Positions 1-39,968 of a stretch of DNA of 56,347 bases are shown in pieces. Within the stretch, counting starts at the first letter, position 1, and every line of letters starts with the position of its first letter. The notes below the pieces were generated by a model that was not told the DNA's origin, ran no database searches, and was given only the letters and a program-made list of their open reading frames with translations. This DNA comes from Micromonospora sp. CPCC 205371. GTDB lineage: Bacteria; Actinomycetota; Actinomycetes; Mycobacteriales; Micromonosporaceae. Where the stretch lies: NCBI RefSeq assembly GCF_026130045.1, contig NZ_JAIBNX010000029.1, positions 1 to 56,347 of the forward strand, given 5' to 3'. The position numbers were made by a program, and so were the translations under genes.

Positions 1-81
1 GATCAAGGGCGAATGCACGTGGTTGGATCTCTTTTCCGCGTGCATTCGCCCTTGATCGATGCGAATGCCCTTGATCGACGG
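1..81 (+). repeat. Interspersed palindromic repeat, copy 1
   Basis: A perfect 19-bp inverted repeat (GATCAAGGGCGAATGCACG at 1-19, its reverse complement at 39-57) encloses a 19-nt loop containing TTGGATCTC. A third CCCTTGATCG box follows at 68-77. The same architecture recurs at 22471-22555, 39481-39563 and 39829-39915. The left end is cut by the window edge, so the terminal CCGCC seen in copies 2 and 4 may lie outside. No coding potential. Confidence 0.9.
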
Positions 82-21604: not shown

Positions 21605-22242
21605 CGCTCCTCATCGTCACCGCCGTCGCGCCCGAAGCCGACGCCATCCGCACCGCCGCAGGTCGATCGTCGTCCACAGTGGAGGTTGTTGGTGTGGGTG
21701 CGGCGGCCGCGGCGGGCGGCACCGCGCGGTTGCTCGCGTTGGCTGAGGCCGCCGGCCGTCCATATCGGGCGGTGCTCAGCGCCGGCATCGGCGGCGGCTT
21801 CCCCGGTCAGGTACCCGTCGGCGGCACCGTGCTCGCCGCACGCAGCATCGCCGCCGACCTGGGCGCCGACTCCCCCGACGGCTTCATCCCACTCGACGAG
21901 CTGGGCTTCGGCTCCGCGATCGCCGCTGTCGACGAGTCGCTGCTAGCGGCGCTCCGGGCCGCGCTGCCGTACGCGGTCGTCGGCGACGTGCTGACGGTCA
22001 ACACCGTGACCGGCACGGCCGAGGGCGCCAAGGCGCTCGCCGCCCGCTATCCGGCGGCGGTGGCCGAGGCCATGGAGGGGTACGGCGTCGCGTGCGCCGC
22101 CACGGCAGCAGGCCTGCCCTTCGCCGAGCTACGCACGATCTCCAACCCCGTCGGCCCCCGCGACCGCGCCGCCTGGCGCCTGGCCGACGCGTTCGCCTCC
22201 TTAGCGAAGGCCGCGGCGACGCTCCCGCGCGCCCTGCCCTAA
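21601..22242 (+). CDS. mqnB: Futalosine hydrolase
   Basis: A 213-residue nucleosidase of the MTA/SAH nucleosidase fold. It cleaves futalosine to hypoxanthine and dehypoxanthine futalosine in the alternative menaquinone pathway. AGIGGGFPG (61-69) and AMEGYGVACAA (157-167), with the ribose-binding MEG triplet, are typical. GTG 21601 overlaps the upstream stop as GTGA. The other mqn genes are not in this window, which is common. A TCCACAGTGGA palindrome (21673-21683) lies inside the coding sequence. Confidence 0.85.
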   Translation: MTLLIVTAVAPEADAIRTAAGRSSSTVEVVGVGAAAAAGGTARLLALAEAAGRPYRAVLSAGIGGGFPGQVPVGGTVLAARSIAADLGADSPDGFIPLDELGFGSAIAAVDESLLAALRAALPYAVVGDVLTVNTVTGTAEGAKALAARYPAAVAEAMEGYGVACAATAAGLPFAELRTISNPVGPRDRAAWRLADAFASLAKAAATLPRALP

Positions 22243-22281: not shown

Positions 22282-22429
22282 CAGCGCGACCCCGACAGCG
22301 CGACCCCGGCCAGCGCGACCCCGGCCAGCGCGACCCCGGCCAGCGCGACCCCGGCCAGCGCGACCCCGGCCAGCGCGACCCCGGCCAGCGCGACCCCGGC
22401 CAGCGCGACCCCGGCCAGCGCGACCCTGA
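22282..22429. repeat. 15-bp tandem repeat array
   Basis: Eight perfect copies of CAGCGCGACCCCGGC (22296-22415) are flanked by shorter variant units at 22282-22295 and 22416-22429. Because the unit is a multiple of three, all frames stay open. Near-identity suggests recent expansion, so copy number may vary between strains. Confidence 0.95.
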
Positions 22430-22470
22430 CAGCGCAGCGCGGACAGCGCGCCCGGACAGCGCAGCCTGCG

Positions 22471-22555
22471 CGTCGATCAAGGAGATCTTCATCGATCAAG
22501 GGCGAACGCACGCGGAAATGAGATCCAACCACGTGCGTTTGCCCTTGATCGGCGG
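22471..22555 (-). repeat. Interspersed palindromic repeat, copy 2
   Basis: Full-length copy in reverse orientation. The stem carries C:G at the position where copies 1 and 4 have T:A, so pairing is kept. One further stem position differs between arms. Both outer ends read as GATCAAGG/CCTTGATC next to CGRCGG-type bases, giving short terminal inverted repeats. Confidence 0.9.
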
Positions 22556-22617: not shown

Positions 22618-23991
22618 CTACGGGGTGGTGCCTAGGTGGGCTAGGAGGTCTTGGCGGGTTAGGACGCCTGTGGGTTTGCCGTCTACCAGCACCAGGGCGG
22701 CGTCGGCCTTCTCCAGCAGGCGGACGGCCTCGCCTACGGGCTGCCCAATGCCGATCATGGGCAGTGCGGGGCCCATGTGGCGCTCGATCGTGTCGTGCAG
22801 GTGAGCGCGCCCGGTGAAGAGCGCGTCGAGCAGATCCTTCTCCGCGATCGACCCAGCCACCTCACCGGTCACCACGGGCGGCTCGGCCTTCAGCACCGGC
22901 AGTTGGGAGACGCCGTACTCGCGCATGTAGTCGATCGCGTCGCGCACCGTCTCGGTCGGGTGTACGTGCACGAGCGACGGCATCCCGCCCGGCTTGCTCG
23001 ACAGGGCGTCGGACACGGTCGGCTCGGCGCTGCCGGTCTCGAGGAAGCCGTACCGGGCCATCCATTCGTCGTTGAAGAGCTTCGAGAGGTAGCCCCGGCC
23101 ACCGTCGGGCAGCAGGACAACCACTACGTCGTCGGGCGTACCCCGGCTGGCCACATCGAGCGCGGCGGCGACCGCCATCCCGCACGAACCGCCGACCAGC
23201 AGCCCTTCCTCGCGCGCCAGCCGCCGGGTCAGCTCGAACGACGTCTTGTCGGAGACCTTGACGATCTCGTCGCACACCGTCGGGTCGTACGTCTGCGGCC
23301 AGAAGTCCTCGCCGACACCTTCGACGAGGTACGGCCGGCCGGTGCCGCCGGAGTACACCGAGCCTTCCGGGTCGGCGCCGACGATGCGCACCGCGCCTGC
23401 GGAGGCCTCCTTGAGGTACCGGCCGACGCCCGAGATCGTGCCGCCGGTGCCGACCCCCGCCACGAAGTGGGTGATCCGGCCGTCGGTCTGCTTCCACAGC
23501 TCCGGACCGGTGGTCTCGTAGTGCGAGCGCGGATTGGCCGGGTTGGAGTACTGGTCGGGCTTCCACGCGCCGGGGATCTCACGGGCGAGGCGGTCGGAGA
23601 CGTTGTAGTACGAGCGGGGGTCTTCGGGGGCGACCGCGGTGGGGCAGACCACCACCTCGGCCCCGTACGCCCGGAGCACGTCCTGCTTGTCCTGGCTCAC
23701 CTTGTCGGGGCAGACGAACACGCAGCGGTACCCGCGCAGCTGGGCGACGAGCGCTAGCCCGACGCCGGTGTTGCCGCTGGTGGGCTCGACGATCGTGCCT
23801 CCGGGCTTGAGCAGTCCCGCGTGCTCGGCCTCTTCGACCATGCGCAGCGCGATCCGGTCTTTTACGGACCCGCCGGGGTTGAGGTACTCCACCTTGGCCA
23901 GCACGGTCGCCGGGATGCCGGCGGTCACGTTACGCAGCTTGACCAGCGGCGTGTTGCCGATCAGTTCGACGACGTTGTCGTAGTAGTGCAC
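22618..23991 (-). CDS. Cystathionine beta-synthase with CBS domain pair
   Basis: A 457-residue protein: a fold-II PLP domain (about 1-320) and a C-terminal pair of CBS domains (about 335-455). The PLP lysine is K44 in NPGGSVKDRIALR. SGNTGVGLA, the glycine loop VGTGGTISG and GGSCGMAVAAAL are the other cofactor motifs. It condenses serine and homocysteine to cystathionine in transsulfuration. The CBS pair may bind an adenosyl ligand. A cysteine synthase role is less likely given the CBS domains. GTG 23991 follows the YkvA-like gene's stop by four bases, so the two are likely co-transcribed. Confidence 0.88.
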   Translation of the reverse strand: MHYYDNVVELIGNTPLVKLRNVTAGIPATVLAKVEYLNPGGSVKDRIALRMVEEAEHAGLLKPGGTIVEPTSGNTGVGLALVAQLRGYRCVFVCPDKVSQDKQDVLRAYGAEVVVCPTAVAPEDPRSYYNVSDRLAREIPGAWKPDQYSNPANPRSHYETTGPELWKQTDGRITHFVAGVGTGGTISGVGRYLKEASAGAVRIVGADPEGSVYSGGTGRPYLVEGVGEDFWPQTYDPTVCDEIVKVSDKTSFELTRRLAREEGLLVGGSCGMAVAAALDVASRGTPDDVVVVLLPDGGRGYLSKLFNDEWMARYGFLETGSAEPTVSDALSSKPGGMPSLVHVHPTETVRDAIDYMREYGVSQLPVLKAEPPVVTGEVAGSIAEKDLLDALFTGRAHLHDTIERHMGPALPMIGIGQPVGEAVRLLEKADAALVLVDGKPTGVLTRQDLLAHLGTTP

Positions 23992-28910: not shown

Positions 28911-28991
28911 TGCCCGGGGCGGGACTCGAACCCGCATGCCTCTCGGCAGCCGCTTTTAAGGCGGCCGTGTCTGCCGTTCCACCACCCGGGC
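28911..28991 (-). tRNA. tRNA-Leu (anticodon UAA)
   Basis: Read on the minus strand, the acceptor arms GCCCGGG and CCCGGGC pair perfectly. The anticodon arm is GCCGC-CTTAAAA-GCGGC with anticodon TAA, the T-arm GCGGGTTCGAGTCCCGC is canonical, and a long variable arm (TGCCGAGAGGCA) marks a class II tRNA. The discriminator is A (28911) and the 3' CCA is not encoded. TTA codons are rare in such genomes and often mark developmental or secondary-metabolism genes; in Streptomyces the equivalent gene is bldA. Confidence 0.95.
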
Positions 28992-39349: not shown

Positions 39350-39422
39350 TCCACGGGCGGCGCCCCGCGCCCCCGCGCCGCTTCCCGCGCCGGCGAGCCG
39401 CGCCCCCTTTCCGCCGATCAGT

Positions 39423-39447
39423 CGTAAACGCGCTCCGCGCGTTTACG
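39423..39447. terminator. Perfect 11-bp hairpin, probable bidirectional terminator
   Basis: CGTAAACGCGC and GCGCGTTTACG pair perfectly across a TCC loop. It lies beyond the stop of the small gene ending at 39349. It has no T-tract on the + side but T/A bases inside the stem. Confidence 0.65.
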
Positions 39448-39480
39448 CGGCCCGTGAGCGGCCGCGCCGCGCGGCCCGCG

Positions 39481-39563
39481 TCGATCAAGGGCGAACGCAC
39501 GTCGTTGGATCTCTTTTCCGCGTGCGTTTGCCCTTGATCCATGCAGATGCCCTTGATCGGCGG
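39481..39563 (+). repeat. Interspersed palindromic repeat, copy 3
   Basis: Same orientation as copy 1. The stem uses C:G at the covarying position, and one further pair becomes G:T. The loop reads TTGGATCTCTTTTCC. A third box, ATGCCCTTGATCGGCGG (39547-39563), closes the element. Confidence 0.92.
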
Positions 39564-39662
39564 GCCGTGCAGGCCACGCAACGCAGGCTGCGGGCGTCCG
39601 GCGCAGGCCGCAGGCTGGGGGCGTCCGCTGCGGGCCGTCACGCGGCCCGGCTGGGCACTCTT

Positions 39663-39763
39663 CACCCATCCCTGTGCAAGACCGCGCCGATCCTGCGGTT
39701 GTCACGTCCCATTCCGGGCATTTCGCCGCGACAACTGCAAGCTCGGCGAACAGGGGCTGGGTG
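39663..39763. repeat. Imperfect palindrome between repeat copies 3 and 4
   Basis: The left arm (about 39663-39702, starting CACCCATCCCTGT) matches the reverse complement of the right arm (about 39730-39763, ending CAGGGGCTGGGTG). Shared blocks include CACCCA, CCCTG, CGCCGA and GTTGTC, with small gaps. It lies near the centre of the inverted pair of flanking repeats. Confidence 0.6.
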
Positions 39764-39828
39764 GGCGACGCCACGCGCGGCGCGGCGGGGTCTCGGGCGG
39801 CGCAGCCGAGCGACCGCACCACGCGACC

Positions 39829-39915
39829 GCCGTCGATCAAGGCAAAGTGCATCGATCAAGGGCGAATGCACGCGGAAATGAGATCGAACCACGTGCATTC
39901 GGCCTTGATCGGCGG
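39829..39915 (-). repeat. Interspersed palindromic repeat, copy 4
   Basis: Reverse orientation relative to copy 3. The stem has T:A at the covarying position, as in copy 1, plus one mismatch near the outer end. The third box reads GATCAAGGCAAAGTGC on the plus strand, partly degenerate. Confidence 0.9.
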
Positions 39916-39968
39916 GCGCGGCGGCGCGGCGGCGCGGCGCGGGGCGCGGGGCGCGGGGGCGGGGTGGG

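Follow-up and report, generated by a model that had tools for sequence, protein, structure and literature searches.

RAYT transposases are the usual explanation for repeats of the REP type, and BIMEs with gyrase in E. coli are an example of repeats that are read as topoisomerase platforms. MITEs such as ERIC, NEMIS, and Correia are small, intergenic, and foldable and bear terminal inverted repeats, while the ends of Tn7 or Mu carry direct repeats of a transposase-binding box that are inverted between the two ends. Boxes repeated at 19-20 bp are unusual for the ends of simple insertion sequences. CGTC-tagged REPs are reported to have stems of 8-9 bp, loops of 4-5 nt, and mostly CCA tails, and to come from five phyla, among which Actinobacteria are not included; untagged REP-like sequences are mentioned there for M. 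tuberculosis and others (PMC3733652).

The family described here was recognised in a 56,347-nucleotide stretch of Micromonospora sp. CPCC 205371 (the window), whose genome (G000) is a 9.36-Mb draft in 481 contigs with an estimated completeness of 98.5%. Its element comprises 84 bp, consisting of a 57-bp palindrome that contains boxes 1 and 2, followed by a third box. The palindrome had been noticed in a preceding sequence-only reading, which assigned it a 19-bp stem and a 19-nt loop; these sizes are replaced by a 22-bp stem and a conserved 13-nt loop (TTSGATCTCWTTT). Box 3 (CCTTGATC), also seen in that reading, is a repeat of box 2 downstream of the palindrome and is present in all four window copies, with 19 bp from start to start. 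It lies at an offset of 11 in 116 of 130 candidate hairpins within 1.17 Mb of G000 and in 44 of 57 candidate hairpins of the congener G004. Alignment of 31 copies, drawn from 35 segments, gave a consensus of approximately CGYCGATCAAGGGCRAAYGCACGTGGTTSGATCTCTTTTCCGCGTGCRTTYGCCCTTGATCSATG-N7-CCTTGATCGRCG; terminal inverted repeats are present (CGYCGATCAAGG / CCTTGATCGRCG), and the ends of the element read CGYCGATC.

All four elements were found where the sequence-only reading had placed them, with boundaries now set by a covariance model. Copy 1 (1..80, + strand; boxes at 1-8, 50-57, and 69-76) lacks its first 4 bases, the contig beginning within it. Copy 2 (22471..22554, - strand; boxes 3, 2, and 1 at 22475-22482, 22494-22501, and 22543-22550) lies between a phosphorylase-superfamily gene (+ strand, ending at 22242) and a PALP/CBS-domain gene (- strand, 3′ end at 22618). 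A 15-bp tandem repeat (GACCCCGGCCAGCGC) at 22300-22430 reaches this copy on its box-3 side. Copy 3 (39479..39562, + strand; boxes at 39483-39490, 39532-39539, and 39551-39558) is the left half of an inverted pair, of which copy 4 (39831..39914, - strand; boxes 3, 2, and 1 at 39835-39842, 39854-39861, and 39903-39910) is the right half with its box 3 pointing inward. The spacer between them (39563..39830) holds no further box or called gene, and the pair sits in a convergent gap (39350..39968) between a short ORF without a Pfam match (+ strand) and a Ppx/GppA-family gene (- strand). One loop base is C in copy 4 and G in copies 1-3; the emphasis that had been put on loop conservation was borne out by the recurrence of a TTKGATCTC loop in G004. 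At the Rfam gathering threshold, the window and six further copy loci gave no match to the element, the only matches being an ordinary tRNA gene in the window (28911-28991, - strand) and an ordinary SAM riboswitch at L171 (14586-14724, - strand). No description of these boxes was found in the titles and abstract openings of the open-access papers listed for the searches made.

Genome-wide counts revealed how far the family extends. G000 contains 728 instances of the exact 19-nt arm (362 + 366), far above chance as judged from its reversed control, which occurs 0 times, and 142 of the exact loop. The exact three-box pattern yielded 250 matches in G000 and 792 in G004, and none in any of the 352 remaining genomes among the 354 of the family. 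Because four-box copies match on both strands, the G004 matches correspond to about 600 elements (56 matches represented 43 elements in 720 kb of G004, and 72 matches represented 72 elements in 1.17 Mb of G000). None of the 60 relatives tested contains the exact G000 arm, and the inner stem of G004 reads GGYCG instead of GCACG. Among up to 111 candidates scored per genome, weaker matches to the G000 covariance model numbered at least 21 in G015, at least 15 in G014, at least 8 in G013, and at least 1 or 2 each in G001, G002, and G005, with none in G003. The genome-wide search that the sequence-only reading had proposed therefore returned hundreds of further copies, and these extend well beyond a single ancestor duplicated within the window. 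Its suggestion of recent copying is supported by these numbers, by the confinement of the exact form to two congeners, and by short element-free gaps at several sites in other congeners. An element or a short piece of one was also observed at 34 of 57 G000 contig ends examined, including base 1 of the window, a share biased upward by the choice of most such contigs for holding copies; the repeats probably caused part of the fragmentation of this assembly.

Folding calculations on the four window copies placed their RNA folds 4.6-7.5 sd below shuffles on both strands. Such strong hairpins on either strand are what would be expected if the elements were bidirectional terminators or 3′-end hairpins that were spread by copying and function as RNA. 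Selection for the fold had been argued from a stem pair that is T:A in some window copies and C:G in others, reportedly compensated in every copy. That holds for one pair in the four copies, but a second strongly variable pair is unpaired in copy 2 (A opposite C), and larger samples revealed no covariation. The most variable pairs, 11/47 and 14/44, vary independently in 121 G000 copies (Fisher p 0.85 and 0.55), as do the variable pairs in 45 G004 copies (p 0.16 to 1); the covariation score of the 31-copy G000 alignment was 0.071 compared with 0.077 in shuffles, and 30 copies from G064, of another genus, were 78.8% paired compared with 78.9% in shuffles. This absence of covariation in three species speaks against a function in the RNA hairpin. 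The compensation seen across the four window copies is a chance result of small sampling, which leaves the argument for selection on the fold unsupported, and it illustrates that four copies alone can yield a convincing yet false covariation signal.

Variation is instead organised by arm. Changes are linked within an arm (positions 11-14, p 9e-5; positions 44-47, p 3e-7) and unlinked across arms (p 0.55-1). Two arm types, CGAATG or CAAACG (right arms being read on the other strand), in which one of two CpGs is changed, account for 82 of the 115 left arms and 87 of the 119 right arms, and either type on the left is freely combined with either on the right, as if copies had exchanged arms. Since the arm types are unlinked across the loop, simple copying of whole units would not be expected to give this pattern. 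Between species, matched differences were detected: pair 16/42 is C:G in 121 of 121 G000 copies and G:C in 45 of 45 G004 copies, at pair 17/41, 116 of 121 G000 copies have A:T and just 33 of 45 G004 copies have a standard pair, and one box pair at an orthologous site is A:T in G001 and G000 and G:C in G002, G003, and G005. These indicate that symmetry has been inherited or maintained over long times, as would be expected equally of DNA half-sites and of an RNA hairpin.

Placement was analysed with a simple codon-bias gene caller on contigs chosen for holding copies. Of 124 copies in G000, not one falls inside a called gene. The 89 that could be placed (35 were left unplaced at contig edges) comprise 42 in convergent, 36 in tandem, and 11 in divergent gaps, compared with 147 convergent, 564 tandem, and 154 divergent gene pairs, so that convergent gaps are over-represented, although the corresponding p of 6e-10 is overstated because members of a doublet share a gap and were counted as independent. 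In G004, 45 of 46 copies were placed (one falls in a doubtful ORF), with 25 in convergent, 17 in tandem, and 3 in divergent gaps (convergent p 5e-8). Enrichment between convergent genes is again what a terminator would show, and it also suits host chromosome-organising sites, convergent gaps being where supercoils meet. Single copies favour the sense of the nearest gene end by 37 to 20, a lean in the direction required of a terminator but a weak one (p 0.03). The 11 G000 copies in divergent gaps count against termination, and such gaps are not clearly avoided (11 of 89 copies versus 154 of 865 pairs, p 0.24; by length, p 0.009). No T-run or terminator-like site was detected at the two window sites scanned, which hold copies 2-4.

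Close neighbours display a fixed polarity. Of 46 neighbours less than 1.2 kb apart, 38 are inverted with box 3 inward (29 of 35 in G000 and 9 of 11 in G004), the arrangement of window copies 3 and 4, and the remaining 8 are on the same strand; the opposite polarity, with box 3 outward, was seen in 0 of 46. The 46 copies listed for G004 include at least one entry (G4b 249539) that is a nearby palindrome of a different type, so one of the same-strand pairs does not consist of two true copies. Other palindromes were also noticed. A second family, approximately GTGATCARGGCGTCCYTCAAGTCGT...ACGACTTGARGGACGCCYTGATCAC with a similar outer box, is found in several congeners (L145 18792, L157 1156, and L152 2283 in G000, the G4a and G4b stretches of G004, and G002) and in G011 of another genus. 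The palindrome CGCGCTGTGAACATCTACTGCTGC...GCAGCAGTAGATGTTCACAGCGCG recurs in the spacers of inverted element pairs (L154 9693-9756, L163 2308-2367, L171 5112-5163), at times near an GCCGTTGAGTTAAGCG-like motif.

Comparison with congeners, along the lines of the flank mapping that the sequence-only reading had suggested, revealed several bare sites, the "empty" state being taken from species that reach about 76-80% identity in their best-aligned genes. At four G004 sites that carry an element, the G001 or G002 flanks align with just 8-52 bp between them; at further sites the congener gaps are longer and without an element by the box definition used. One such G001 gap contains another palindrome with GATCAGGG ends. 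At the window site of 39.3-40.0 kb, a single element of the G004 type is present in G004, the flanks align in G001 with about 15 bp between them, and the G003 gap has no element. Five G000 gaps could be mapped with both flanks in G004: two, this site and C1 137.7 kb, are filled in both species and three are not, one of the latter holding a different palindrome in G004. The two doubly filled gaps imply that old insertions or preferred sites exist. A further position is occupied throughout, in that a palindrome directly follows the stop codon of an NlpC/P60-like gene (identified from its sequence without a family search) in six of six congeners. It is the three-box version with differing interiors in G001, G002, G003, and G005, its inner stem hardly pairing in G002, the high-copy element in G000, and an unrelated palindrome in G004. 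The three-box architecture therefore predates the amplification. Such constancy, with a palindrome in all six congeners and three boxes in five, is in keeping with terminators, is not predicted for a purely selfish element, and may mean that the palindrome at this gene is useful to the host.

The insertion record also bears on whether the elements are classical MITEs, that is, deletion derivatives of a DDE insertion sequence moved by the transposase of that element. Their terminal inverted repeats are of the kind MITEs have, their G+C content (mostly 0.52-0.60) differs from that of the flanks (about 0.7 or more), and they have burst in single lineages. No target-site duplication of 2-9 bp exceeded permutation in 106 G000 and 44 G004 copies, however, and the same flank test showed no extended complementarity; no transposase gene was recognised by eye in the gene lists between paired copies, and the repeated boxes at 19-20 bp are atypical of simple insertion-sequence ends. 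A MITE origin is accordingly judged very unlikely. In the fetched stretches, no insertion sequence with box ends was noticed by eye between neighbours less than 6.5 kb apart.

Outside box 1, C is abundant and A is scarce (0.57 and 0.04, respectively, over the first 20 nt) relative to other convergent gene ends (C 0.34, A 0.15). This bias declines within about 200 nt and is found in all gene contexts, including divergent and antisense ones, and the flanks on this side are often short tandem repeats, some with truncated arms; our guess at the cause is slippage or repair at the base of the hairpin. Since the left flank resembles a low-complexity tail, SINE-like copying by reverse transcriptase was considered and was rejected for G000, where this draft of 98.5% estimated completeness contains no RVT_1 match. 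G003 has none either, and the other congeners have one (G004), five (G001), three (G002), and one (G005). RAYT mobilisation was rejected for G000 on the same footing: Y1_Tnp matches numbered 0 in G000-G005, G014, and G015 and two in G013, in a search whose controls were positive in 5 of 14 genomes. The lineage-specific family thus reaches very high abundance, with at least 250 copies here, in genomes in which no RAYT was found.

Beyond these congeners, what recurs is the box. The two-box pattern GATCARGG-N25-45-CCYTGATC equals its own reverse complement, so each site was counted once. It gave 454 sites in G000 and 689 in G004, followed by 100 in G001, 58 in G002, 78 in G003, 41 in G005, 61 in G013, 90 in G014, 39 in G032, 74 in G064, 189 in G182, 121 in G183, 145 in G368, 22 in G377, and 17 in G278. 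The remaining genomes of the 121 had mostly 0-5 sites (11 in G011), and the reversed control was 0 in 120 of 121 genomes. Nine or ten genera show amplification of the pattern. Interiors differ between genera, as seen in G000, G004, G011, G014, G064, and one G182 site; the other genomes are represented by two-box counts alone. This sharing of a box by otherwise different repeats points to a putative protein that recognises it, and the presence of the same terminal box on unrelated palindromes in other genera makes a search for such a box-reading protein directly testable. Two long palindromes with GATCAAGG ends in G384, which belongs to a different family within the order, are a hint that the box is not confined to this family.

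G064 offers the clearest view of which parts are kept. In 30 aligned copies (of 33 listed places and a genome total of 74; one 47-nt copy, one 57-nt copy, and one near-duplicate were left out), the outer 11 bp on each side are nearly invariant and most of the interior has diverged. Conservation of the boxes is partly an effect of ascertainment, since the searches demanded them exact or nearly so; positions 9-11 and 44-46, which the search pattern leaves free, are kept in at least 27 of 30 copies. Each of the 26 G064 cores in the fetched stretches lies between genes, 15 of them in tandem, 11 in convergent, and 0 in divergent gaps, with divergent pairs making up 27 of the 137 gene pairs there. 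About half have extra boxes in inward-pointing polar arrays, on the left of 13 of 26 cores and on the right of 16 of 26, and the steps are exactly 20 bp in 23 of 25 cases on the left and 34 of 35 on the right (57 of 60 in total). Counts of "wrong-way" boxes in these arrays (10 and 4) are unreliable because the right-hand box plus ACG differs from the left-hand box by a single mismatch. In G004, an extra left box at 19 bp is present in 14 of 44 copies, and in G000 in 0 of 106. Direct box repeats at steps of 16-24 bp number 418 in G000, 914 in G004, and 132 in G064; among those listed, the other genomes of the 354 have at most 10, mostly coding as far as the repeated strings suggest, and the G064 congeners G017, G063, and G065 have 0. 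Contigs C76 and C77 of G091 (genus g30) contain CCTTGATC repeats with a 16-bp step in a genome where the three-box element is otherwise absent.

For termination, the G064 cores cut both ways. Their absence from divergent gaps agrees with it, but their stem interior loses pairing while the boxes stay, and termination provides no role for the extra boxes of polar arrays. Although a terminator role for some copies is possible, termination is unlikely to be what the family is for. The same cores lend some weight to host chromosome-organising sites under selection, for example topoisomerase or nucleoid-protein platforms, since the arrays point inward with a fixed step and their boxes are kept while the interiors diverge. 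Against this stand the many genomes of the same family with few or no elements and the lack of direct box repeats in the three G064 congeners, which imply that the role cannot be essential; an organising role of this kind also seems improbable.

Taken together, the elements are probably REP/BIME-like non-autonomous mobile palindromes that would be recognised as DNA, through the box, by a putative protein. The unit would be defined by the DNA box (Y)GATCARGG in inverted pairs about 42-58 bp across, with more boxes one step (19-20 bp) outside the inverted pair in some genomes. A putative host or mobile-element protein would bind the boxes as duplex or single-stranded DNA and, once bound, copy the unit into gene gaps. 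Insertions inside genes would be lost, which would leave survivors mostly downstream of genes and often as inverted doublets, and the species-specific interior would be the mark of amplification from one or a few sources per lineage. The family has probably spread without a RAYT, its constant part being the DNA box, probably a protein-binding site; topoisomerase binding or a brake on transcription may be among its functions. A broader version can be offered tentatively, though it is more doubtful than probable: family-wide mobile "box arrays", in which inward (T)GATCARGG repeats around a short core would be moved and read by one putative protein, neither a RAYT nor a reverse transcriptase, and would have been amplified independently in nine or ten actinobacterial genera with a different interior each time, the box being the real unit and the hairpin a by-product.

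Measured against described systems, the Tn7 and Mu ends are similar in having direct box repeats at each end that are inverted between ends, whereas here about 36-41 bp separate the innermost boxes and there is no cargo gene or duplication. MITEs of the ERIC, NEMIS, and Correia kind resemble the element in being small, intergenic, and foldable with terminal inverted repeats, and differ from it in that no target-site duplication was found here and no cognate insertion sequence was noticed by eye between close neighbours. CGTC-tagged REPs share ends that begin CGYC, a predominance of inverted dimers, and the lack of a known dedicated transposase, but the 22-bp stem and 13-nt loop of the present element lie outside their stem and loop definition (PMC3733652). 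The untagged REP-like sequences of M. tuberculosis are alike by mention alone, as actinobacterial REP-like palindromes (PMC3733652). The closest likeness is to the REP, REPIN, and BIME sequences that accompany RAYTs, which comprise hundreds of extragenic palindromes and inverted doublets located downstream of genes and between convergent genes, with species-specific sequence types (PMC3116915, PMC2817692, PMC3733652). RAYT-linked REPs are described there as 20-40 bp units with a GTAG tag, whereas the present element has 84 bp, a 22-bp stem, no GTAG, extra boxes at a fixed 19-20 bp step, and no Y1_Tnp match in G000. Because these defining features were looked for and found to differ, the element is not a RAYT-linked REP; it behaves like REPINs without belonging to the RAYT-linked family.
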